This document shows positions 5,614 to 20,950 of a stretch of 48,671 bases of DNA, in pieces (within the stretch, counting starts at the first letter, position 1; each line of letters opens with the position of its first letter). The translations under genes were made by a program, and so were the position numbers. The notes under the pieces were generated by a model, which searched no databases, was not told where the DNA came from, and worked only from the letters and a program-made list of their open reading frames with translations. This DNA is from Candidatus Latescibacterota bacterium (GTDB taxonomy: Bacteria; Latescibacterota; UBA2968): the NCBI GenBank assembly GCA_022821275.1, contig JAJEDY010000086.1:1-48671 (forward strand), written 5' to 3'.

Positions 5614-5631
5614 AAATTGGAGGATAGTGAT

Positions 5632-8007
5632 ATGAACAGGAAATTTCTCGCTGCTGTCCTGATGATAGTGGTTGTCGGGTGGGCATTTAATGTCTATTCT
5701 CTGGACACTCAGAATATGCGACAACTCACCCGCGGGCAACTCTGGACCGGATTTCGCAATGAGGGCACTCAGGGCGGCGTCTGGGACGACCGAAGTTCTC
5801 GCGGCGCGCCCCGCTTGACGTATCCGGGCATGGGCAATGGTCTTATGCTCAATATGGCGGGGGCTGACTATATCGAGTATTTCGGGAAAAAGGACGGTTT
5901 TAGCTGGGCAGAGCAAAAGCAAGAAGCGCAAAATTTATCGGGTGGTGAGGGAATATGGGTGTTGACCAATGTCGGCGGCGAATACGGGGTGTCGTATTCG
6001 GGACCGTGGACGCCTTCGGCAGATATCGCACCGATGTATTACGATATTGCCAATAGCCCCGAAGCGAACTGGGGGTATCAAGTCGAAGTGCCGCCCCATG
6101 GCGTGGGCGCGGGAGCAATTATGCCCAACTGGTATCCCGGTGCAGCATTGCAAACCGATGCGCCGAGGACAGGTGTGCCCTATGAAATCCTCAACCATCG
6201 GTGGGGGCAGTACATGGACGCCGATAAGGATGGTCGCGCAGAAGATATCGTTTTTAGCAAGTGGACGACCAAACACGGTGTTACGATTACGCGCAAGGCC
6301 ATGGCCTGGAGTTATCAGGGCTTTGATGACTTCTTTATTCTCGAAGTGGAATTTGAGAACACGGGTGATTCCGATGGCGATGGCATTGCAGATTTGAACG
6401 GTGGTGCAGGATATCCTTTGCAGGATGCGTATTTCGCATTTGTTCAGGGTTTTACCGTGAGCATGTCTGGCGATGGTAATAACCACAGCATGAGCGCGGG
6501 GATGCCCGGGCAATATACGCCGCAAGACGACCACTTTCGCTATACTGCGGCTCCCAATTACGACGGTCCGGCTGAATATGTGGAACTGAAGCTCAGCTAT
6601 CAGTGGGATGGGGATGATCCCACCAAATCGCAGGAAGATACGGGCCAACCCATTGATATTGAAAGTGTACATGGCAATGCCAAGCGGTTGCCCGGTGGTA
6701 TATCTGATGGACAATTGCGAGCACCCCAATACGTGGGTGTCGCACCATTGGCCTATCGCGATAGCGGGCCGTCTCATATGTTCAATGCCAATGATCAGGG
6801 CAAATACGTGAATCCCGTTGGGGAACAGCCTCGTACAGTCAAGTGGTACGAGACCGACCGCTTCTGGGGCTTGCGCACCAAATTGCCCAATTTGTCGAGC
6901 GATTCGGAACAGGGTATATACGAGGCATTTTCCGGTGCGACAGATAACAATCCCACAACGGTAACGGGTTTTGCCAATGTGCAGACTTACGGGCCGTACA
7001 ATCTGGCTGTAGGCGAAAAGGCCAAAGTGGTGGTGGCTTATGTCGCCGCATCGGGCGCGCAAGCAATCTCGCGGCCCGGTCAACCTGCTTATGCTATTGA
7101 TATTCAATCGTTTTGTCTGGATGGCATACCTCTGGAAGAATCGGTTCGCCTCGACCGCTTGAAACAGGGTGAGAGTGCTCTGATCGCACATCTGGAGGCC
7201 GCGCAATTTGCGTACGATAATATGTACGACCTGCCCGATTATCCACCCGATGTCATGTTCACGCCCGGAGTCAATCAAGACGCGGAAATTACATTGACGT
7301 GGAGCGATGGCGTCGAATCATCGGCACATCCCGATTTTGGCGATCCCGATGTGGTGGGGTATCGCGTGTTCCGATCTGCTTATCAGGAATTTGGTCCCTG
7401 GGAACACGTCGGTACGGTTACGGCAGGCACAAGTGGAACTACCTGGGACTATTCGGGCGGTCAATACGTGTGGCGTGATAATACGGCAGTTGCCGGGTTC
7501 CGGTATTTTTACAATGTGCGGGCTTTTGCCAAACCGCGCGATTCGTGGAGCAATGGCATGTCGAGTATGGCTGATTTGCCCGCAGAAGTGCAGGGGCATT
7601 TAAAGGCTGGACTCGAAGGTGGATATTCTGCGCCTGAACACCGCGTGAATCTGGACCTCAGCCCGTTTCAGCCGGGACTGGCTCCATCGTGGCCAGAAAA
7701 GCGCGTGCGCGTGGTGCCCAATCCGTTCAGTTTGTCGGAATCGGCTTATAATTACCAGAGTTCAAAAAAGATCCGCTTTCTGGGATTGCCCCCCAAAAGC
7801 CGCGTGCTGATTTACAATGTGGCGGGAGATATTGTGGGTGAAATCCTGCACGACGATGCCAGTTCAGGCGAAGCCTCGTGGTTCCAGATTGAACGCAATG
7901 TGACTGCGCCTGATGTGGCCAGTGGCATTTATTTTTACGTCGTTGAATCGCTGACGCCCGAAAGTATGGGGCAAACGGTGACGGGGACGTTTTACATTTT
8001 GAGATAG
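5632..8007 (+). CDS. Large secreted protein with FN3-like and type IX-like C-terminal domain
   Basis: The 791-residue product has a signal peptide (MNRKFLAAVLMIVVVGWAFN) and a long extracellular region. A fibronectin-III-like segment lies at about residues 545-650 (ITLTWSDGVES, VVGYRVFRSAYQEFGPW, FRYFYNVRAF). The end is the FlgD-Ig/type IX sorting-like pattern: VVPNPFSLSE, VLIYNVAGDIVGEI, SGIYFYVVES and final GTFYILR. Such domains route proteins through the type IX system or attach them to the surface in Bacteroidetes relatives. ATG at 5632 follows GGAGGA; the frame opens with a TTG 15 bases earlier. It lies between the TonB receptor and a PorV-like gene, suggesting joint surface function. 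The middle 500 residues match nothing I recognise. Confidence 0.7.
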   Translation: MNRKFLAAVLMIVVVGWAFNVYSLDTQNMRQLTRGQLWTGFRNEGTQGGVWDDRSSRGAPRLTYPGMGNGLMLNMAGADYIEYFGKKDGFSWAEQKQEAQNLSGGEGIWVLTNVGGEYGVSYSGPWTPSADIAPMYYDIANSPEANWGYQVEVPPHGVGAGAIMPNWYPGAALQTDAPRTGVPYEILNHRWGQYMDADKDGRAEDIVFSKWTTKHGVTITRKAMAWSYQGFDDFFILEVEFENTGDSDGDGIADLNGGAGYPLQDAYFAFVQGFTVSMSGDGNNHSMSAGMPGQYTPQDDHFRYTAAPNYDGPAEYVELKLSYQWDGDDPTKSQEDTGQPIDIESVHGNAKRLPGGISDGQLRAPQYVGVAPLAYRDSGPSHMFNANDQGKYVNPVGEQPRTVKWYETDRFWGLRTKLPNLSSDSEQGIYEAFSGATDNNPTTVTGFANVQTYGPYNLAVGEKAKVVVAYVAASGAQAISRPGQPAYAIDIQSFCLDGIPLEESVRLDRLKQGESALIAHLEAAQFAYDNMYDLPDYPPDVMFTPGVNQDAEITLTWSDGVESSAHPDFGDPDVVGYRVFRSAYQEFGPWEHVGTVTAGTSGTTWDYSGGQYVWRDNTAVAGFRYFYNVRAFAKPRDSWSNGMSSMADLPAEVQGHLKAGLEGGYSAPEHRVNLDLSPFQPGLAPSWPEKRVRVVPNPFSLSESAYNYQSSKKIRFLGLPPKSRVLIYNVAGDIVGEILHDDASSGEASWFQIERNVTAPDVASGIYFYVVESLTPESMGQTVTGTFYILR

Positions 8008-14286: not shown

Positions 14287-15033
14287 ATGCAGATGACCAA
14301 AGCTCAAAAGCAGCAGTTTTTCGAAGATGGATATGTGCTTGTGCGTGGTGCTGTGCCAAAGTTAATGGCCGATCAAGCGCGGAAGGCTATTAACCATCAC
14401 ATGCGTTTTCGCGTGATGCAACAGGGACGAAATCCAGGGTTGAGCAACGAGCCGGTGATTACAGATTTGTTTAATAAATCGCCGCTTTGGGGTCTGTGCG
14501 AGTCGGTTGTGGGAGAGGGGAAGTTGATCCCACAACAGGGAGGTAACGTGAAGCTCAATTTTCCCGATGCAGAGGAGCGTCCACTGACGCGAGGGCATCT
14601 GGATTTGGGTGGGAAGTTGAAGGATGGGTTGCTGAGTCGCGGTATGACGCTGCTGGTGGTGGTTCTGGTCCACGATGTTCCGCGACCATATATGGGCAAT
14701 TTCTGTTTTTGGCCCGGATCGCATCGCGCTTATGAGGCGGCGTTTCAAAAGGATCCCAATTACGTGGAGACGGCAAAGGCCAATCGCCGGATTCCCGATA
14801 TCGATTTGCCGCATGGGCCGATTCAGTTTATGGGCGAGGCAGGCGATGCGGTGATCTGCCATCACCAGATGTATCACAACGGAGGTCCAAATCATTCGCC
14901 CGATATCCGGTATGCTGTGATTTTCAGACCCCGACACGTCAATGCCAGAGAAAATAGCACGGATGCGATGACCGATATCTGGCGGGAGTTTGAAGGATTG
15001 ACGGATCTGAAGGAAGAGGCGATGGCGGTTTAG
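14287..15033 (+). CDS. Phytanoyl-CoA dioxygenase family protein
   Basis: This 248-residue protein fits the PhyH family of Fe(II)/2-oxoglutarate oxygenases, which hydroxylate small organic molecules with O2 and 2-oxoglutarate. The N-terminus QQFFEDGYVLVRGAVPK is the family start. The iron motif His-x-Asp is seen as GHLD near residue 103, the distal His in the QMYHNGGPN stretch near residue 197, and the oxoglutarate-binding Arg probably in DIRYAVIF. AAAGGAG precedes ATG 14287. It is the last gene of the symporter-dehydrogenase run and is followed by a strong terminator at 15079. The native substrate is unknown; few bacterial members act on phytanoyl-CoA. Confidence 0.88.
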   Translation: MQMTKAQKQQFFEDGYVLVRGAVPKLMADQARKAINHHMRFRVMQQGRNPGLSNEPVITDLFNKSPLWGLCESVVGEGKLIPQQGGNVKLNFPDAEERPLTRGHLDLGGKLKDGLLSRGMTLLVVVLVHDVPRPYMGNFCFWPGSHRAYEAAFQKDPNYVETAKANRRIPDIDLPHGPIQFMGEAGDAVICHHQMYHNGGPNHSPDIRYAVIFRPRHVNARENSTDAMTDIWREFEGLTDLKEEAMAV

Positions 15034-15078
15034 GTATTTGTTTCGCTATGGTTCATCCAGACCGATGGATAAAAGGTT

Positions 15079-15147
15079 CCCCCCCGATGACAAGTGCTCC
15101 AGGCGAGCACTCTCCTGTACGGAGTAGTCGGGGGGGTCATTTTTTTT
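15079..15147 (+). terminator. Branched (three-way junction) rho-independent terminator
   Basis: A perfect 9-bp stem pairs CCCCCCCGA (15079-15087) with TCGGGGGGG (15128-15136) and is followed by a run of eight T (15140-15147). Inside the stem are two further hairpins: AGTGCT/AGCACT (15093-15111, loop CCAGGCG) and CTCC/GGAG (15112-15124, loop TGTAC). It lies 45 bases after the PhyH stop and should end that operon. Confidence 0.8.
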
Positions 15148-15419
15148 CCATCAGTTCACTATTCTCTCGCGATTCTGTGATGGCTTTAAGCCAGAATAAG
15201 CCAACCGCAGTCTCACAGGCGTTTCTATTGCTCCCCATTACGCTCCAATTCTGTGATGCTCTGTCATAGCTTGTCACAGCTTGTCATAGCTCCCGAGTTG
15301 ACTATCTATCATTAAACACGTATCGTTTGCTGCGGTCCGTTGGACTCGTTGATTTTTTTATTCAATTGCGCCCCTATTACGCCTCCGAAATCAAGTCAGA
15401 CAGCAGTCGGATTTGGCTG
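15148..15419. other. Non-coding gap with 10-bp tandem repeats at 15251-15290
   Basis: No gene is seen. At 15261-15290 three 10-base units follow one another (CTGTCATAGC, TTGTCACAGC, TTGTCATAGC), preceded by a weaker copy CTGTGATGCT at 15251. The 10-base spacing places each copy on the same DNA face. They lie 130 bases beyond the 3' end of the reverse-strand methyltransferase and mark the left edge of the cassette. Confidence 0.55.
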
Positions 15420-16634
15420 TCATGGCTTCTCAAACATTACAACACTCTCTCGAGACGCCACTCGTCCATATTTTCCCATCTGCTGTGCACTATTTCCACG
15501 TCTTCGCACTACTCGTATTTCCTCACAGATGAGCCCTGCTTGTTCCCCGATCTCTGCCGTGAACTCATCAACAAGGATAGCCTTACCGTCATATTGTGCA
15601 TTCCCCACGACGAACGCTGCTTTAGCTCCTTTGCGACAAACACGGGCAACTTCGCAAAGACATAAATACATGTCCAAGAAATATCCCTCTAGCATGTGCT
15701 GCATGCGCTTGTCACGTAGATCTCGGATACTGTCGCTTAAAGCCTTAGGAGACTTATATCTTTCAGCCGCTGGTCGATTCGGACGAGCTTCCGGATGGGA
15801 ATGAAACGTCTGGTATCTAAGTGCTCGATTGGCTTCCCAGTCAAGAAAGGCAAACATCAATTCGACCCCAAAAATTCGCGTGTAGTCGTGACGGTTGGGG
15901 TACGGCGGAGAAGTAATCACGGCTGAGTATTTCTCATCAGATGCCGGCATGACACGCGCATCCGCGACACGGGCTTTCCAATATCTATTGACTTGGGGAG
16001 ATATGTCACAAATATCCGACAACATCATCTCAACTTGTTTTTTTAAAAAAATCGTAACGTTCTCGGCACCATCACCTTGATTCAACCACCTTAGCCAACC
16101 TCCAGTTGCGACCGCATGGCTGAAACGTGGTATGATGGAAATCAACGCTAATCGGAAGAAGTCCCGTTCCGAGGACGAACACTTGAGATTCTCGATACTT
16201 GTCGCGACTGTGTCAAGTGCTTCAAGCCGTCCCTCTGGGAGTGCCTTGTGAACCAGTTCCGGATAGGCGCGGCTCATGGGTGTCGTGCCGTTGTGTACCA
16301 ATGTATTTTCGAGTGTTCGCCATGCTGTTTTCAATCGCTTTCGAGAGAAAGTAGCGGTCTTAGTATTAGATGCGAGAATGGCGAGCGGAGAAAGATCATA
16401 GCCGTTACTCGAAACGCCCATTTCCTTGGCCGCCAATAGCGTTGTACCTGCGCCCACGAAGGGATCAAGGATCCTATCCTGACCGTTAAGGCCCCATTCA
16501 TCAATTAACGCGTGTACGAGGTTATCGGTGAAGCTATGGGGAAATAGATACCAACGGTGAACGGCTTTCTCTTTGGCATCTTTTGGAGTCACCCAATGTC
16601 TCCACTCTGCCTGCTCGGTGGTTTGATATTTCAT
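15420..16634 (-). CDS. Site-specific DNA methyltransferase (amino-methyltransferase fold)
   Basis: This 404-residue protein carries both hallmarks of S-adenosylmethionine-dependent DNA amino-methyltransferases: DPFVGAGTT (motif I, residues 57-65, cofactor binding) and ITSPPYPNR (motif IV, 240-248, catalytic). SPPY favours N4-cytosine methylation, although adenine methylases of this branch also carry it. About 175 residues separate motif I from motif IV, unlike the common beta order (IV before I), and could hold the target-recognition region. It is the last gene of the reverse-strand cassette, 13 bases after the PIN gene, with no conventional restriction endonuclease beside it. It probably marks host DNA; an orphan regulatory methylase is the alternative. 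Confidence 0.85.
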   Translation of the reverse strand: MKYQTTEQAEWRHWVTPKDAKEKAVHRWYLFPHSFTDNLVHALIDEWGLNGQDRILDPFVGAGTTLLAAKEMGVSSNGYDLSPLAILASNTKTATFSRKRLKTAWRTLENTLVHNGTTPMSRAYPELVHKALPEGRLEALDTVATSIENLKCSSSERDFFRLALISIIPRFSHAVATGGWLRWLNQGDGAENVTIFLKKQVEMMLSDICDISPQVNRYWKARVADARVMPASDEKYSAVITSPPYPNRHDYTRIFGVELMFAFLDWEANRALRYQTFHSHPEARPNRPAAERYKSPKALSDSIRDLRDKRMQHMLEGYFLDMYLCLCEVARVCRKGAKAAFVVGNAQYDGKAILVDEFTAEIGEQAGLICEEIRVVRRRGNSAQQMGKYGRVASRESVVMFEKP

Positions 16635-16647
16635 AACCAGACCTATC

Positions 16648-17424
16648 TCAAGGAAAAGATGGAGATGACAATCCTTTACGTCTGCCTGTATGCGTAACTG
16701 TGAAGGCTTGGGGTAGTTTGATCTCGATCTCCGTTTTAAGTATCACTTCGCTGATAAGCTCATTCAACTTTTGTCGAATTTCCTCGTATCGTTGCTCCTG
16801 TGAATCACGGATATAATTCACAGTTTCTATGAGGTAGCTATCAGCTGTGATCAAATAGTTTGCTCCGGCAGCCACTGCACTTGCGTAAATAATACTATCT
16901 ATCTCGCCCATGTAAATAAGACCAACTATGCCTTTCGCCAACTCAATTACCTCATTTGTACGGTCGCTATCACTTCGCGTAATCGTAACGCCAGACTCCT
17001 CTAACATTGAGTTAAGATCGTCAATACGATCCTTGATAGCTGCTAAATCCTCAATGGCTATCCGATCTCGAATTTCCTTTGGCAAAAAATTTGACCATAT
17101 TCGATGAGGGATGCCCTCTTGAGCCATTTTTACACGTGCTTCTCCCTCCGTAATTCCAGTGAGTATCTCGATTTCTGAGACGGGTGCGTATTCGACCTGT
17201 ACATCCCTTGATAGTAACACAATCGTCTCCAAGCCTTGTAGCAGTGATTCTTTTAGAAGTTTTTCAGAAACTTTGCCAAAATGGTTTTTCAATATTGAGA
17301 CCGTTTGCTCGTCCGTAGGAAATTCAAGACCATCCTTCTTTGCGGACTCCAGACAAAGCCGAATGTAGTGTAATGTCATCGTGTCCAGAAACACTACTTT
17401 CTGGAAGGGGTACTCCTCTTTCAT
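16648..17424 (-). CDS. PIN-like domain nuclease
   Basis: This 258-residue protein shows a PIN-fold acidic pattern. It has Asp14 in VVFLDTMTLHYI, Glu84/Glu86 in PVSEIEILTG, Asp176 in GEIDSIIYASAVAAGANYL and Asp195 in ITADSYL. The GA-x-YLIT-x-D tail strand is the most typical part. These residues would bind Mg2+ or Mn2+ for RNA or DNA cleavage. It is longer than toxin PIN proteins (about 130 residues), with extra helices between the second and third acidic positions and a 60-residue C-terminal tail. Its ATG overlaps the stop of the ATPase gene by four bases (ATGA), implying coupled translation and a shared complex. In context it could be the effector nuclease of the cassette; no antitoxin-like partner of VapB type is seen. 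Confidence 0.75.
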   Translation of the reverse strand: MKEEYPFQKVVFLDTMTLHYIRLCLESAKKDGLEFPTDEQTVSILKNHFGKVSEKLLKESLLQGLETIVLLSRDVQVEYAPVSEIEILTGITEGEARVKMAQEGIPHRIWSNFLPKEIRDRIAIEDLAAIKDRIDDLNSMLEESGVTITRSDSDRTNEVIELAKGIVGLIYMGEIDSIIYASAVAAGANYLITADSYLIETVNYIRDSQEQRYEEIRQKLNELISEVILKTEIEIKLPQAFTVTHTGRRKGLSSPSFP

Positions 17425-18602
17425 GGCTGTGCATTCTCGCTATTAGTCAATTGGGGATAAAGTTCGTCTTCGATTTTGTGAAGATAGTTTTCTGTAAATG
17501 GTAGTTGTACATCAGCATCCACTTGGGCAATCGCTCGAAAACATGTTTTTACGAGTCGTCTGGGATTCGAGTAGGTGTTGGGCCGGAAGACAATATTATC
17601 CGGAAACGGGAAAATATCTCCTATTGATTCGTTCTTCTCGCTTGATCGAGCAGCCTCTATCCGTGATCTCATTAAGGCCAGTGCTTCTGAACTCGTTAAG
17701 AGATCAATATTTAATATTTGGTCAGAAATGCGCTCAATCAGCGAAGGTTCAAACTCCTTGGTGATTTCATAAGCATCGGGAGTCATTGACATGACGATCC
17801 AGAAGTCGATCTGCTCGCTTTGAGCGAGGTTTATCAAACGTTTCAGCGTTGCCAAGTAATCATGTGCAGCGCGTCTGGTGAGCCTTTTTTGAAGACCTAT
17901 TTCCTCGAATTCGTCAATGAGAAACGCAATGGCTTTAGCACTCGTTCCTTGTAAGATCGTTTTCAATATTGCGCGGAAGTAAGGTGCTTCTTCCCCCTCC
18001 GGGACCATGCTGCTGCTCTGCCTCGGTACGAAGTCCCGATATTCGAAATATGGTTTTTTCACAATCTCGGTAACGATTCGGGCAAGACAGTGGGCAATTT
18101 CTTCATCTGGCGTAATCTCCGCCTTCCTGATTGCATCCTGGAGAGGGCTTGTAATATTTTGTTGTCGGCGCGAACTAGCTATTACGGATAGATATTCTTC
18201 AAAGCTCTTTCGAAAAAGATCTCCCTGATAGGCGAACGACACATGAGGACTAACGAGTTCCCAGATGAATTTAGCAAAATTTTTGCGTCCGATAGTGCGC
18301 AACAACATATTGGCAAGGTCGTAGAATTGCACCCCTGGATTGTCGAAGTAGAATGATTTAATTTGACGGTCTGGAAAGACTTCGCTATGAAGCCATTGCA
18401 AGAGGCAGGTCTTTCCGGTTCCATACTCGCCGACGATGACGATGGCCTTGACACCGGCTCCTGTTTGATGTAAGTCGAGGAGTTCTTTCATTCGAGTTTC
18501 CAACTCATTTGGAGGCGACAATTTTGCATGGAGGGGGGCACCTGTTGCCGCTGGCTCGAAGGGATTAAAGTCAAGCCGGAGTTTTTTCAGAATATTGGAC
18601 AT
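17421..18602 (-). CDS. AAA/ORC-like P-loop ATPase
   Basis: The 393-residue protein has a Walker A motif GEYGTGKT (residues 58-65), Walker B AFLIDEFE (226-233), a sensor-1-like strand DFWIVMSMTPDA and a late NPRRLVK segment. This resembles the ORC/Cdc6-like or STAND-related ATPases of phage-defence operons (such as BREX BrxD-type proteins) and transposition regulators. The start DFNPFEPAATGAP contains an NPFEP motif often found before this ATPase core. No membrane segment is seen. It overlaps the upstream winged-helix gene by 32 bases and the PIN gene by four. It probably senses or loads onto DNA and controls the nuclease; that role is inferred. Confidence 0.8.
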   Translation of the reverse strand: MSNILKKLRLDFNPFEPAATGAPLHAKLSPPNELETRMKELLDLHQTGAGVKAIVIVGEYGTGKTCLLQWLHSEVFPDRQIKSFYFDNPGVQFYDLANMLLRTIGRKNFAKFIWELVSPHVSFAYQGDLFRKSFEEYLSVIASSRRQQNITSPLQDAIRKAEITPDEEIAHCLARIVTEIVKKPYFEYRDFVPRQSSSMVPEGEEAPYFRAILKTILQGTSAKAIAFLIDEFEEIGLQKRLTRRAAHDYLATLKRLINLAQSEQIDFWIVMSMTPDAYEITKEFEPSLIERISDQILNIDLLTSSEALALMRSRIEAARSSEKNESIGDIFPFPDNIVFRPNTYSNPRRLVKTCFRAIAQVDADVQLPFTENYLHKIEDELYPQLTNSENAQP

Positions 18603-19650
18603 GGTTATTTGTCACCTCTTGGGATTTGATAGTTATCTCTTGATGTATGCGAATATGGGAGATATAGGGACCATTTGGAGTTCTATAATACCTTCGCAAC
18701 TCTAAATTTTCCCTCTGCGGCGATGTCGCTGTCAGCGTAGCGAGGGCACGAGATGTCGGGATTAGCAAAATATGATTGGGCCATTCTTTGAGTAACCAAT
18801 CAATGGCACGAAAGAGCACACTAATCGGTTGCCTTTGTTCTACACAGCAACGAGCGATGAGATCGGAAATGGATAACAAAGTCCATTCTCCTGGAGTACG
18901 TAGAGAAAGTAGTAAGCGCACTGTTCGCAGTACAGGGGAATCAATTTCTGTAGAGAAAGGCTCTAGGCGGGATAGAGGAAACATGATTGTATCACTGCCA
19001 GCTTGTTGACAGTATTCGTCAATGAGTCCTAATTCATCACGCGCCCAGTAGCGTACGCCATATAGGATCGCAGACACACTTACAGGTGATTCACAACGTA
19101 CCGTGTAGCCTGTTGTATTATTTTCAAAAACGACCTTCCCGGTGCGAGAGGAATGGTGGCGGGTCCACTTAACGGGGAGACCCTTTTGCCGGAAGTTGGA
19201 AACGGTATCAGAACTTATATCCAAAGGCATGAAAAGATCGAAGAAAAGCGATCTGCATTGTTCGTTTTTCAAAACCAGTGCTGCAAATGGGTCTTTCGCA
19301 GCATCACATAGAGATTGATCTTCGTTGTTTGGAACTGGCTGATGTAGGAGTTTGCAGACATCAGGATCATCGTAATTGACAAGCAACATCCGTCCATCTC
19401 GTTTGAGTGCATGCAGGTGTAACAAGGTATTTCGATAGTGGTAAAGGGTAGTAGGTGAAGGAGGGGAATTACGTTGCGTAAGCGAGATGTGGTTTTCCAG
19501 CACCAGGTTGTTAATTTCACTAGCTCTAAGTCCGCTCGGAAAGTCTGCAACGGCTTTCAAAATGCGATGGAGTCCGGCAAATGAGACGGTACGCATCCAG
19601 TATTCGCTCTGTTGCAAGTTGTCTTTGCTGCGATGTTGTGGCTGTGCCAT
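18571..19650 (-). CDS. Unrecognised protein with N-terminal winged-helix-like domain
   Basis: I do not recognise this 359-residue protein as a named family. Residues about 20-95 look like a winged helix: FAGLHRILKAVADF, GLRASEINNLVL, TTLYHYRNTLLHLHALKR, then a short beta wing GRMLLVNYDD. The remainder is mixed alpha/beta with no catalytic motif I can name. The ATG at 19650 is chosen because AGAGGGG lies eight bases upstream; the frame extends to a TTG at 19734 with no ribosome site. It is the first gene of the cassette and follows a consensus promoter at 19828-19857. It probably binds DNA, as a specificity factor or autoregulator of the system. Confidence 0.65.
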   Translation of the reverse strand: MAQPQHRSKDNLQQSEYWMRTVSFAGLHRILKAVADFPSGLRASEINNLVLENHISLTQRNSPPSPTTLYHYRNTLLHLHALKRDGRMLLVNYDDPDVCKLLHQPVPNNEDQSLCDAAKDPFAALVLKNEQCRSLFFDLFMPLDISSDTVSNFRQKGLPVKWTRHHSSRTGKVVFENNTTGYTVRCESPVSVSAILYGVRYWARDELGLIDEYCQQAGSDTIMFPLSRLEPFSTEIDSPVLRTVRLLLSLRTPGEWTLLSISDLIARCCVEQRQPISVLFRAIDWLLKEWPNHILLIPTSRALATLTATSPQRENLELRRYYRTPNGPYISHIRIHQEITIKSQEVTNNHVQYSEKTPA

Positions 19651-19827
19651 GTCGGCTACCCCTCTACATCCGTGCATTTTGAAATTGTGGGGCAATACCT
19701 CGGTAGATATGTCCTCATTTGCGGCAACCCCCAAGTTATCAAAATATCGACAAAATGTTGTCCTTAGTCAAACCCGTGGTCTCCAATTTGATGAAATCGA
19801 CACCAGGACGGATAAAGTCGCACATGA

Positions 19828-19857: not shown

Positions 19858-19914
19858 GAGTATTTTTATTTTATCATTTTTAATTTCCGACATAGAGCGG
19901 GGGATTTTTTCGCA

Positions 19915-19943
19915 TTGACACGCGGGGTTCTGTCGTCTATTAT
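19915..19943 (+). promoter_or_regulatory. Near-consensus sigma70 promoter of the aldo/keto reductase operon
   Basis: TTGACA (19915-19920), exactly 17 bases, then TATTAT (19938-19943) gives 11 of 12 consensus matches. Transcription would start near 19950, leaving a leader of about 20 bases with the ribosome site CAGGAGGA before the ATG at 19973. Confidence 0.75.
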
Positions 19944-19972: not shown

Positions 19973-20950
19973 ATGCAGAGTAAGATATTGGGCAGAACGG
20001 GGTTGGAGGTTCCAATTGTAAGTTTTGGCACGGCATTTCTCGCTCGTGTGATGGGGGAAGATGGTCATTTTTTACCGGGCGTCGATGAAGATGTGGGTGT
20101 AGAGAATGTGGTGGCTGCTGTTGAGGCTGGGTGTACGCTGATCGATACGGCGCCGCTTTACGGGAATACTGCGAGTGAGAAAATTATTGGTCGCGCGTTG
20201 CGCGAACGCTTCGATCTGGCTGAAAAGTGTACGGTGACGACAAAAGTGGGAAGATCGGGAAGTGAATACGATTTCTCTTTCGACGGGGTGATGCAACAGG
20301 TGGAAGGCAGTCAGGAGCGGTTGGGGCTGGATGCGTTTGACGTGCTGTATATTCACGATCCAATGGATTTTCCCATGCAACAGGTGATGGCAAAAGATGG
20401 CGCGCTTGGGGCATTGCGAAAATTGCAGGATGAGGGTGTGGTGCGGTTTGTCGGTATTGCGGCCAATGATCCCGATTCAAATGGTCCGTACATTGATACG
20501 GGTGAGTTTGATGCCTCGGTGGTTCCCGATGCGTGGAGTTTGTTGAATCGGGCGGCGGATACGTTCATTTTTCCCGGTGCTGAAAAACACAATGTGGGGA
20601 TTGCGCTCGCAACACCTCTGGAACGCGGTTTGCTGGCGACGGGACCCTTGCCCGGGCATTCTTATGTGAATCGCAATTTTAGTCAGTCGGTTTTGGACCG
20701 CGTTGGGAGAGTAAAAGCACTTTGCGACGATTATGGCATTCCACTGGTGGCTGCATCGCTGCAGTGGTGTACAAGGCATCCGTTGATTGCAACGGCGATT
20801 TGTGGAGGGCGAAACAAAGAAGAGACAATTCAAAATGCCGAGGCTGGCAGTATTGAAATTCCCGAAGCGTTTTGGGATGATCTGGAGCCGTTGATCCAGG
20901 ATTGGGATCAGGAGCATGTGGTGAAGGTGGGTAAAGGCAACCACAGATGA
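19973..20950 (+). CDS. Aldo/keto reductase
   Basis: This 325-residue NADPH-type oxidoreductase of the aldo/keto reductase superfamily has a TIM barrel and reduces aldehydes or ketones. The catalytic tetrad is visible: Asp and Tyr in LIDTAPLYGNTASEKIIG, Lys in CTVTTKVG and His in LYIHDPMD. It resembles the fucose/galactose dehydrogenase-like branch (long HDP loop, VPIVSFGTAFL start). CAGGAGGA precedes ATG. The last codons (GNHR and TGA) are read from a dispersed ACCACAGATGA repeat, so the natural C-terminus may have been altered. It opens a run of sugar-acid or polyol genes. Confidence 0.9.
   Translation: MQSKILGRTGLEVPIVSFGTAFLARVMGEDGHFLPGVDEDVGVENVVAAVEAGCTLIDTAPLYGNTASEKIIGRALRERFDLAEKCTVTTKVGRSGSEYDFSFDGVMQQVEGSQERLGLDAFDVLYIHDPMDFPMQQVMAKDGALGALRKLQDEGVVRFVGIAANDPDSNGPYIDTGEFDASVVPDAWSLLNRAADTFIFPGAEKHNVGIALATPLERGLLATGPLPGHSYVNRNFSQSVLDRVGRVKALCDDYGIPLVAASLQWCTRHPLIATAICGGRNKEETIQNAEAGSIEIPEAFWDDLEPLIQDWDQEHVVKVGKGNHR

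Follow-up and report, generated by a model that had tools for sequence, protein, structure and literature searches.

The stretch of DNA analysed here (48,671 bp, the window) carries behind a gene of the PhyH family a structured RNA element that is probably an orphan copy, about 75 nt long, of a DUF3800-IX-like small RNA (sRNA), reused as the PhyH terminator after its insertion at this site. Judging from its sequence, the element most likely terminates PhyH transcription by means of its basal stem P1 and the U tract that follows. The DUF3800 partner of the RNA family and the orphan state of the window copy add to the initial annotation of this DNA, which had described a terminator with an unusual loop.

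Fold of the element in the window

The PhyH-family gene (Pfam PF05721), whose transcript the element would end, spans 14287..15033 on the plus strand. It is followed on the same strand by the element (15079-15136), a three-way junction with helices P1 of 10 bp, P2 of 7 bp and P3 of 4 bp. The P1 arms, CCCCCCCGAU at 15079..15088 and the 3' arm at 15127..15136, are defined by the fold, RNAalifold and pair counts, and form nine Watson-Crick pairs (15079-15087/15128-15136) plus a U15088-G15127 pair. Junction strand J12 (15089..15092) reads GACA, which is conserved core in the alignments and unchanged in the seven copies found at the PhyH site. The P2 hairpin AGUGCUC-CAGGC-GAGCACU (15093..15111, arms 15093-15099/15105-15111) and the P3 hairpin CUCC-UGUAC-GGAG (15112..15124, arms 15112-15115/15121-15124) come next, followed by the UA of junction strand J31 (15125..15126), also placed by alignments. 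Beyond P1 a UCA spacer (15137-15139) precedes a U8 tract (T8 in the DNA, 15140-15147), which starts 3 nt past the stem. The spacer is UC[AG] in most copies, and most other copies have U-rich tails as well. A leader, ATGGTTCATCCAGACCGATGGATAA (15048..15072, plus strand), lies in the PhyH 3' UTR and is by eye like the 5' region of copies that have a promoter-like sequence (locus L052, near 4505 on the minus strand); a blastn match in genome G041 extends back to 15047.

The segment 15070-15160 has a minimum free energy of -36.5 kcal/mol (z -3.5), with 1 of 200 shuffles equally good. A scan of both strands of the window for terminator-like structures (a stem of 8 bp or more with 28-60 nt inside it and a T-rich 8-mer after it) has this element as its sole match. 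The initial annotation had claimed a terminator loop with two extra hairpins, which the fold, the window scan and RNAalifold on 37 copies bear out. Its 9-bp G/C stem stands, with the U-G pair added, but the T8 tail that it attached to this stem is not flush with it. A G/C-rich stem followed by a U tract is a trait of intrinsic terminators, also seen in the native PhyH terminator that occupies the same place of the transcription unit in genomes G003, G005 and G008. The element differs from an ordinary intrinsic terminator by its 38-nt loop structured as two hairpins instead of a short simple one, its conserved unpaired residues, its covariation, and the 3-nt spacer where the U tract would directly follow the stem. 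The whole window has no Rfam match at the gathering score, a tRNA/tmRNA search of it returned none, and no direct repeats were found flanking the element.

Distribution and covariation of the RNA family

A blastn search with 15040-15165 in 60 genomes, the element's own included, gives strong copies in 13 others (E 5e-9 or lower) and weak matches only in 28 further genomes; some loci hold two or three copies. From public bacterial genomes a DNA pattern made from the core retrieves 27 stretches, some of them the same loci; one viral contig matches a similar pattern. Among the carriers are Vulcaniibacterium thermophilum, Tepidimonas alkaliphilus and Pseudoxanthomonas taiwanensis, whose records come from strains and not from MAGs. 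According to record titles, in which some MAG names may be loose, the carriers belong to Latescibacterota, Chloroflexota, Terriglobia, several Proteobacteria, Nitrospira and others, besides viral contigs. With covariance model R1, 14 of 64 genomes from the phylum of the window have the element (its own genome among them), as do 5 of 399 from the order of G066 (Propionivibrio, locus L066), one of these five matches being false. Model R2 finds it in 10 of 41 genomes of the class of the Chloroflexota genome G069 and in 2 of 398 of the order of the Vulcaniibacterium genome G067. The R1 and R2 genome samples contain the genomes on which they were centred. A match in L169 (G230, 25 bits) is by eye a coding-frame false positive and was taken out before the A3 alignment described below; model matches of about 12-22 bits on the minus strand mirror the fold and do not add copies.

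This patchy distribution resembles that expected for a mobile module. Mobility finds no explanation in plasmid, phage and E. coli records, since blastn of the L067 copy against plasmids, phages and E. coli genomes gave no match. Rfam, searched with E up to 1 in six RNA-bearing loci, has no match at the RNA.

RNAalifold without a preset structure, applied to 37 distinct copies aligned with MAFFT, returns three helices identical to those of the window fold. Both sides change in 5 of the 21 pairs of this alignment (one in P1, four in P2, none in P3), and its covariation is 0.141, where shuffles give 0.068 and slid pairings no more than 0.051. The A3 alignment joins 12 rows to the 37 copies (49 rows, 44 distinct). 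It is aligned to the covariance model and hence biased toward it, and has compensatory change in 14 of 21 pairs and in all three helices, with a covariation of 0.262, where shuffles give 0.119 and slid pairings no more than 0.085. Family-wide, compensatory change reaches 6 of the 7 pairs of P2 and 3 of the 4 pairs of P3. The conserved columns are partly a selection effect, because the copies obtained by blastn and by the DNA pattern were found by sequence. In copies reached from the protein side, such as L195-L196 and, by eye, L187-L189, the letters of P1 differ and its pairing is kept. The proposal of a structured RNA element, put forward with a covariance search as its check, has come through that search: homologues covary in all three helices, P1 and P2 doing so in the independent alignment too, and there is no refutation on that count.

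Some loci carry additional RNA-like sequences. A diverged sister three-way junction lies just upstream of the full copy in L046 (5174-5237, plus), L047 (5014-5078, plus) and L048 (5607-5671, minus); these score 28-39 bits with R1, lack a U tract and are possibly co-transcribed with the full copy. In L085 a second diverged copy (5618-5695, 62.9 bits), whose P1 sequence is largely different, stands in tandem before the main copy. Another conserved G/C-rich sequence, GGCGGTCGTCGCCTGGTGTAACCGGGGGCGGCCGTTTTC, is found upstream of the RNA in L085 (near 5730-5770) and in similar form in L063, L067 and L088; it is possibly another structured RNA.

Pairing with a DUF3800 gene

Past the U tract, most copies face the 3' end of an opposite-strand gene, identified with Pfam on three proteins as DUF3800 (PF12686). 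A profile built from 15 of these neighbour proteins has a match downstream of the RNA and on the opposite strand at 30 of the 53 copies, five of these matches (at two copies of L048 and one each of L072, L074 and L082) being to truncated DUF3800 genes. Two more of the 53 copies are too near the edge of their stretch, yet are paired in longer stretches, and 21 have no DUF3800 match beside them. At the nearest copy the DUF3800 frame, counted without its stop codon, ends between 6 nt inside and 28 nt beyond the model end.

The association also holds when it is approached from the protein. The 60 genomes of the window's relatives have 24 PF12686 matches, of which three belong to the DUF3800 clade and have the RNA (3/3); at the other 21, outside the clade, the RNA is absent within the loci examined. 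The clade is present in 4 of 399 genomes of the order of G066, all four with the RNA and the same four as in the RNA-first search, and in 6 of 400 genomes of the phylum of G069, again all with the RNA. Viral contigs hold five clade loci, four with the RNA by model. In total the covariance model places the RNA at 17 of 18 DUF3800 clade genes, and at 10 of 11 after the seven that derive from genomes or contigs that entered through the RNA are dropped (G066, G073, the viral contig of L063, G069, G075, G079 and G491). The fifth viral locus, L190, has by eye a tail-to-tail stem with UGAUGA...UAGUC; it is counted as a miss, as R2 has no match there at E up to 0.1 and RNAfold gives no clean three-way junction.

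Type III toxin-antitoxin systems have a short RNA repeat array on the strand of the toxin and upstream of it. The RNA of the paired loci is a single copy or two spaced copies and lies downstream of DUF3800 on the opposite strand, a different layout. For six copies from the class of G069 (L170, L171, L172, L174, L178 and L179), no DUF3800 match lies within 1.5 kb; the gene upstream of the RNA in L170 and L174 resembles the gene that precedes the paired copies L080, L086 and L177. Near the DUF3800 module of a viral contig, L187:2508-2585 gives sub-threshold matches to the plasmid antisense RNAs Plasmid_R1162 and PtaRNA1.

The paired copies are preceded by a promoter-like motif. TANNNT is found at -14 from the AAGG start in 14 of 33 paired copies, against at most 6 at any single position in 1000 letter shuffles, and at -14 to -12 in 24 of 33. 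This box type is at -14 to -12 in none of the seven copies of the PhyH site, the window included; the window copy and that of G002 have one TANNNT, at -26. Such a -10 box would start the paired RNA at about the conserved AAAGG, with some 75-80 nt to the U tract, and it is likely from this arrangement that the RNA is a transcript of its own in the paired loci. The position of this box in the 24 paired copies also weighs against a plain bidirectional or reinforced terminator devoid of RNA function. The G/C stem and U-rich tail retained in most copies, and the location of the fold between convergent genes, are as a terminator would have them, but termination should need neither invariant junction residues nor compensatory change in P2 and P3, and the minus strand has only AACCUUUUA after the stem. 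Already disfavoured by the covariation of P2 and P3, a plain terminator is very unlikely. An attC or transposon-end identity, considered for the tandem copies and the position at an island edge, was dropped because of the -10 box in most paired copies, the covariation and the fixed partner gene.

Relation to known RNA families

The closest described RNA is DUF3800-IX (Rfam RF02968, typed 'Gene; sRNA'), one of the DUF3800 RNA families that reportedly stem from a 2017 paper. L188, from a viral contig, matches it over its full length with 30.9 bits, below the gathering score of 36.8 (E 4e-5 in 161 nt, 0.0086 in 34.7 kb), at the same place where the model of the present family scores 67.7 bits. 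DUF3800-IX matches neither the window copy nor L085 with E up to 10, and seven other loci searched gave no match like that of L188. The two RNAs share their plan: a long P1, a 4-nt J12 beginning with GA, P2, P3, UA, the P1 3' arm and a U-rich tail. They differ in the sequences of P1 and loops and in J12, which is GACA here and GAAC in DUF3800-IX. The linkage of DUF3800-IX to a DUF3800 gene is found in the wider family but not at the window copy, which has neither a DUF3800 neighbour nor a -10 box at the usual place. The L188 match and the shared plan, with the other loci unmatched, suggest that the family is a divergent branch of the DUF3800-IX kind. The window copy is, on these sequence grounds, an orphan of this branch and not a member of DUF3800-IX.

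DUF3800-VI (Rfam RF02915, typed 'Cis-reg') is likewise linked to DUF3800 and has, in L096, a P1 around two hairpins followed by T8. It differs in that it lies in L096 upstream of DUF3800 on the same strand, and its junction sequence is by eye unrelated; its model has no match in the window with E up to 10. Since DUF3800-VI, whose model does match L096, likewise combines a three-way junction and a T tract, this plan recurs among DUF3800 RNAs. The portions of the literature searched state no role for the named DUF3800 RNA families, and passages of PMC10910872 link DUF3800 to putative ncRNAs.

Genomic setting and possible role of the paired module

Of 19 loci mapped, 11 have hsdR and/or hsdS near the RNA-DUF3800 module, which lies between hsdS and hsdR in eight (L052, L066, L067, L074, L085, L087, L090 and L188); in L052 hsdS is farther away, beyond another frame. 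Among proteins hand-picked as likely HsdR or HsdS, Pfam finds HSDR_N in 10/10 presumed HsdR and Methylase_S in 9/9 presumed HsdS, with HsdM in L067. No restriction gene was seen among the neighbours scanned in the other 8 of 19 loci. A large upstream frame of L088 is YgjP-like only, and neither a neighbour in L051, with TPR, nor L070:1945-3789, with no family, is suggestive of restriction. A phage integrase adjoins DUF3800 in L187.

The AlphaFold model of the L085 DUF3800 protein (mean pLDDT 86.3) matches best RNase HII (1eke; Foldseek E 2.8e-5; VIA Z 12.3, 3.0 A, 166 residues), with PIWI domains ranked lower. No sequence relative of the DUF3800 clade was found in the PDB with E up to 1. Each of three DUF3800 proteins has DUF3800_VII as its sole PADLOC match (E 4.6e-8 to 1.5e-4), a name that refers to a retron effector class.

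By analogy with PrrC, the RNA of the paired loci might neutralise a harmful RNase H-like DUF3800 protein that is freed upon an attack on the linked type I restriction system, a serious possibility although not the probable one. PrrC, a tRNA nuclease, is likewise an extra nuclease-like gene among hsd genes, in place of which the present loci have DUF3800 and a small antisense-strand RNA. According to the abstract of PMC2610378, PrrC is silenced by a linked type I enzyme. The asymmetry between the RNA at 17 of 18 proteins and the RNA without DUF3800 in 21 of 53 copies is that expected if the protein needs the RNA. A protein hardly ever found without the RNA, with an RNA often found without the protein, leans toward restraint of DUF3800 over its activation. 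The frequent proximity of hsdR or hsdS and the predicted RNase HII-like fold agree with toxin neutralisation. However, orphan RNAs would persist too if the RNA had a second use besides that of a cofactor, and the loci as scanned include the eight where no restriction gene is seen.

The high rank of PIWI domains after RNase HII also brings to mind an RNA-directed nuclease for which the RNA would be guide or scaffold. In line with such a role, DUF3800 occurs in some Cas12a2 (V-A2) and type VI-F loci, where passages of PMC10910872 and PMC12669027 present it as a protein with an RNase H fold. Nevertheless, long variable unpaired stretches are absent from this 75-nt RNA, its unpaired junction is among its most conserved parts even across phyla, and there is no variable spacer as in a CRISPR-like guide; a guide or scaffold is thus rather improbable.

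The PhyH site

The element follows PhyH in seven genomes, namely that of the window (G000) and G001, G002, G004, G006, G007 and G009, with a U tract in 7/7 copies. In G003, G005 and G008 an ordinary terminator, CCCCTGYTCT...AGAGCAGGGGATTTTTT, stands behind the same PhyH gene; in G005 and G008 an aldo/keto reductase gene comes next and the sites lack the island cargo. The 5' half of this native terminator is missing in the window. Its 3' half, ACATAGAGCGGGGGATTTTTT (19890..19910, plus strand), identified by comparison with G003, G005, G008 and G006, is about 4.8 kb away at the far island end, just before the reductase gene. G006 shares the right island junction of the window; the right end is readable in these two of the seven genomes only. 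The native terminator, split in the window and intact in relatives, indicates that the island entered the PhyH terminator, most simply once. This state fits the earlier suggestion of a terminator facing the cassette, the native one being intact in the three relatives.

In the window the island carries, on the minus strand (15420..19734), defence-like cargo recognised with Pfam and PADLOC: a type II-like DNA methyltransferase, two unassigned proteins and an AAA ATPase. The two unassigned proteins (16651-17424 and 18574-19734) lack Pfam and PADLOC matches; placed beside the methyltransferase and the weakly BrxD-like AAA ATPase they make this a candidate defence operon. Cargo differs between islands, that of G001 including hsdR and a DUF3800-RNA pair. 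The second RNA copy of G001 (L052, 4404-4475, minus) has by eye a promoter-like sequence, and its leader resembles the relic leader of the window copy. PF12686 has no match in G000 (97.52% complete), which holds one real RNA copy, nor in G002, G006 and G009; G004 and G007 have one match each, outside the clade. G001 alone of the seven retains a cognate DUF3800.

A structured domain that ends in a terminator is the usual layout of a riboswitch or attenuator, but control of a downstream gene by the element is extremely improbable. The large frames of 15420-19734 (two of the four with family matches) belong to the minus strand, the next large gene of the plus strand (at 19973) has its own promoter-like site (19915-19943), and in paired loci the neighbour is convergent.

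In G003 (L054, after 6419) the intact native terminator is directly followed by a different sequence, and the site may be an insertion hot spot. A repeat, AAGCCAGAATAAGCCAAC...CACAGGCGTTTC, recurs with variation at 15189-15232 of the window and in L046 and L058, with GCGCCCCTATT-like repeats nearby. Repeats like TGTCAYAGCTTGTCATAGCT come soon after the RNA in several island-bearing genomes (window 15260-15295, similar in L056, L057, L058 and L059).

Constraint on the copies at the PhyH site

On the tree of the seven PhyH genes fourfold sites underwent 0.70 changes each (69 changes at 98 sites), and fourfold divergence among the seven reaches 0.30. The 24 core positions of the RNA (GAUGACAAG, CUCUCC and GAGUAGUCG) have 0 changes versus 16.9 expected (Poisson 5e-8), these positions having been picked for family-wide conservation with the seven rows already seen aligned. 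The five distal columns of each P2 arm have five changes, in matched pairs, and one P2 pair is mismatched in G002. Indels, an extra G in G009 and a missing C in G001, are outside the change count. P2 types do not follow the PhyH tree, the sisters G007 and G009 having different ones, so that the likeness of the cores may be owed in part to exchange between copies. A constant core would mean that something still reads the fold or that termination itself needs it. This constancy exceeds what termination by P1 and the U tract should need, and a mere terminator explains too little of it.

The window copy might accordingly still be an active RNA, either an sRNA derived from the PhyH 3' UTR with some factor other than DUF3800 as its trans target, or an anti-addiction RNA against incoming DUF3800. 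This is unlikely, though the unchanged core with P2 changing in pairs speaks for it, as do the four of seven genomes without PF12686 (G000, G002, G006 and G009) and the two with matches only outside the clade. The fold is also kept in other copies lacking an adjacent DUF3800, the six from the class of G069 among them, and the module is present in viral contigs. Against an active copy, G001 keeps its cognate DUF3800, and losses elsewhere may be too recent for decay, even at the fourfold divergence observed. The more specific proposal of a domesticated anti-addiction or trans RNA, its core kept against DUF3800 of mobile elements or for a new host partner and P1 doubling as terminator, is rather improbable.

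An orphan sRNA copy reused as PhyH terminator remains the preferred explanation. In paired loci the RNA would be made from its own promoter, end at its own U tract, and bind or control the RNase H-like DUF3800 protein as part of a defence module. In an ancestor within the genus an RNA-bearing island, comparable to that of G001 with two RNA copies, hsdR and DUF3800, would have recombined into the PhyH terminator, an event that would have removed the promoter of the RNA and fused its body to the PhyH 3' UTR. P1 and the U tract would then have become the terminator of the PhyH unit, blocking read-through into the oppositely transcribed cargo, and the core would have stayed constant afterwards. 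Several points count against this explanation: the 3-nt gap between stem and U tract may weaken termination, one genome of the seven (G001) has a second RNA copy in addition to its cognate DUF3800, some of the protein-first sample entered through the RNA, and the likeness of the cores may owe something to exchange between copies.

Significance of the RNA family

With these copies the DUF3800-IX kind of RNA now extends to several phyla. It is tightly paired, tail-to-tail, with one DUF3800 clade, and the module is placed in type I restriction loci. The sister copies at the PhyH site amount to a natural experiment in which the RNA core is kept, in 6 of 7 cases in genomes with no detected DUF3800 of the clade. 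Such orphan copies with a kept core make the role of the RNA directly testable, through binding of the junction and through the harm that DUF3800 may cause in the absence of the RNA.
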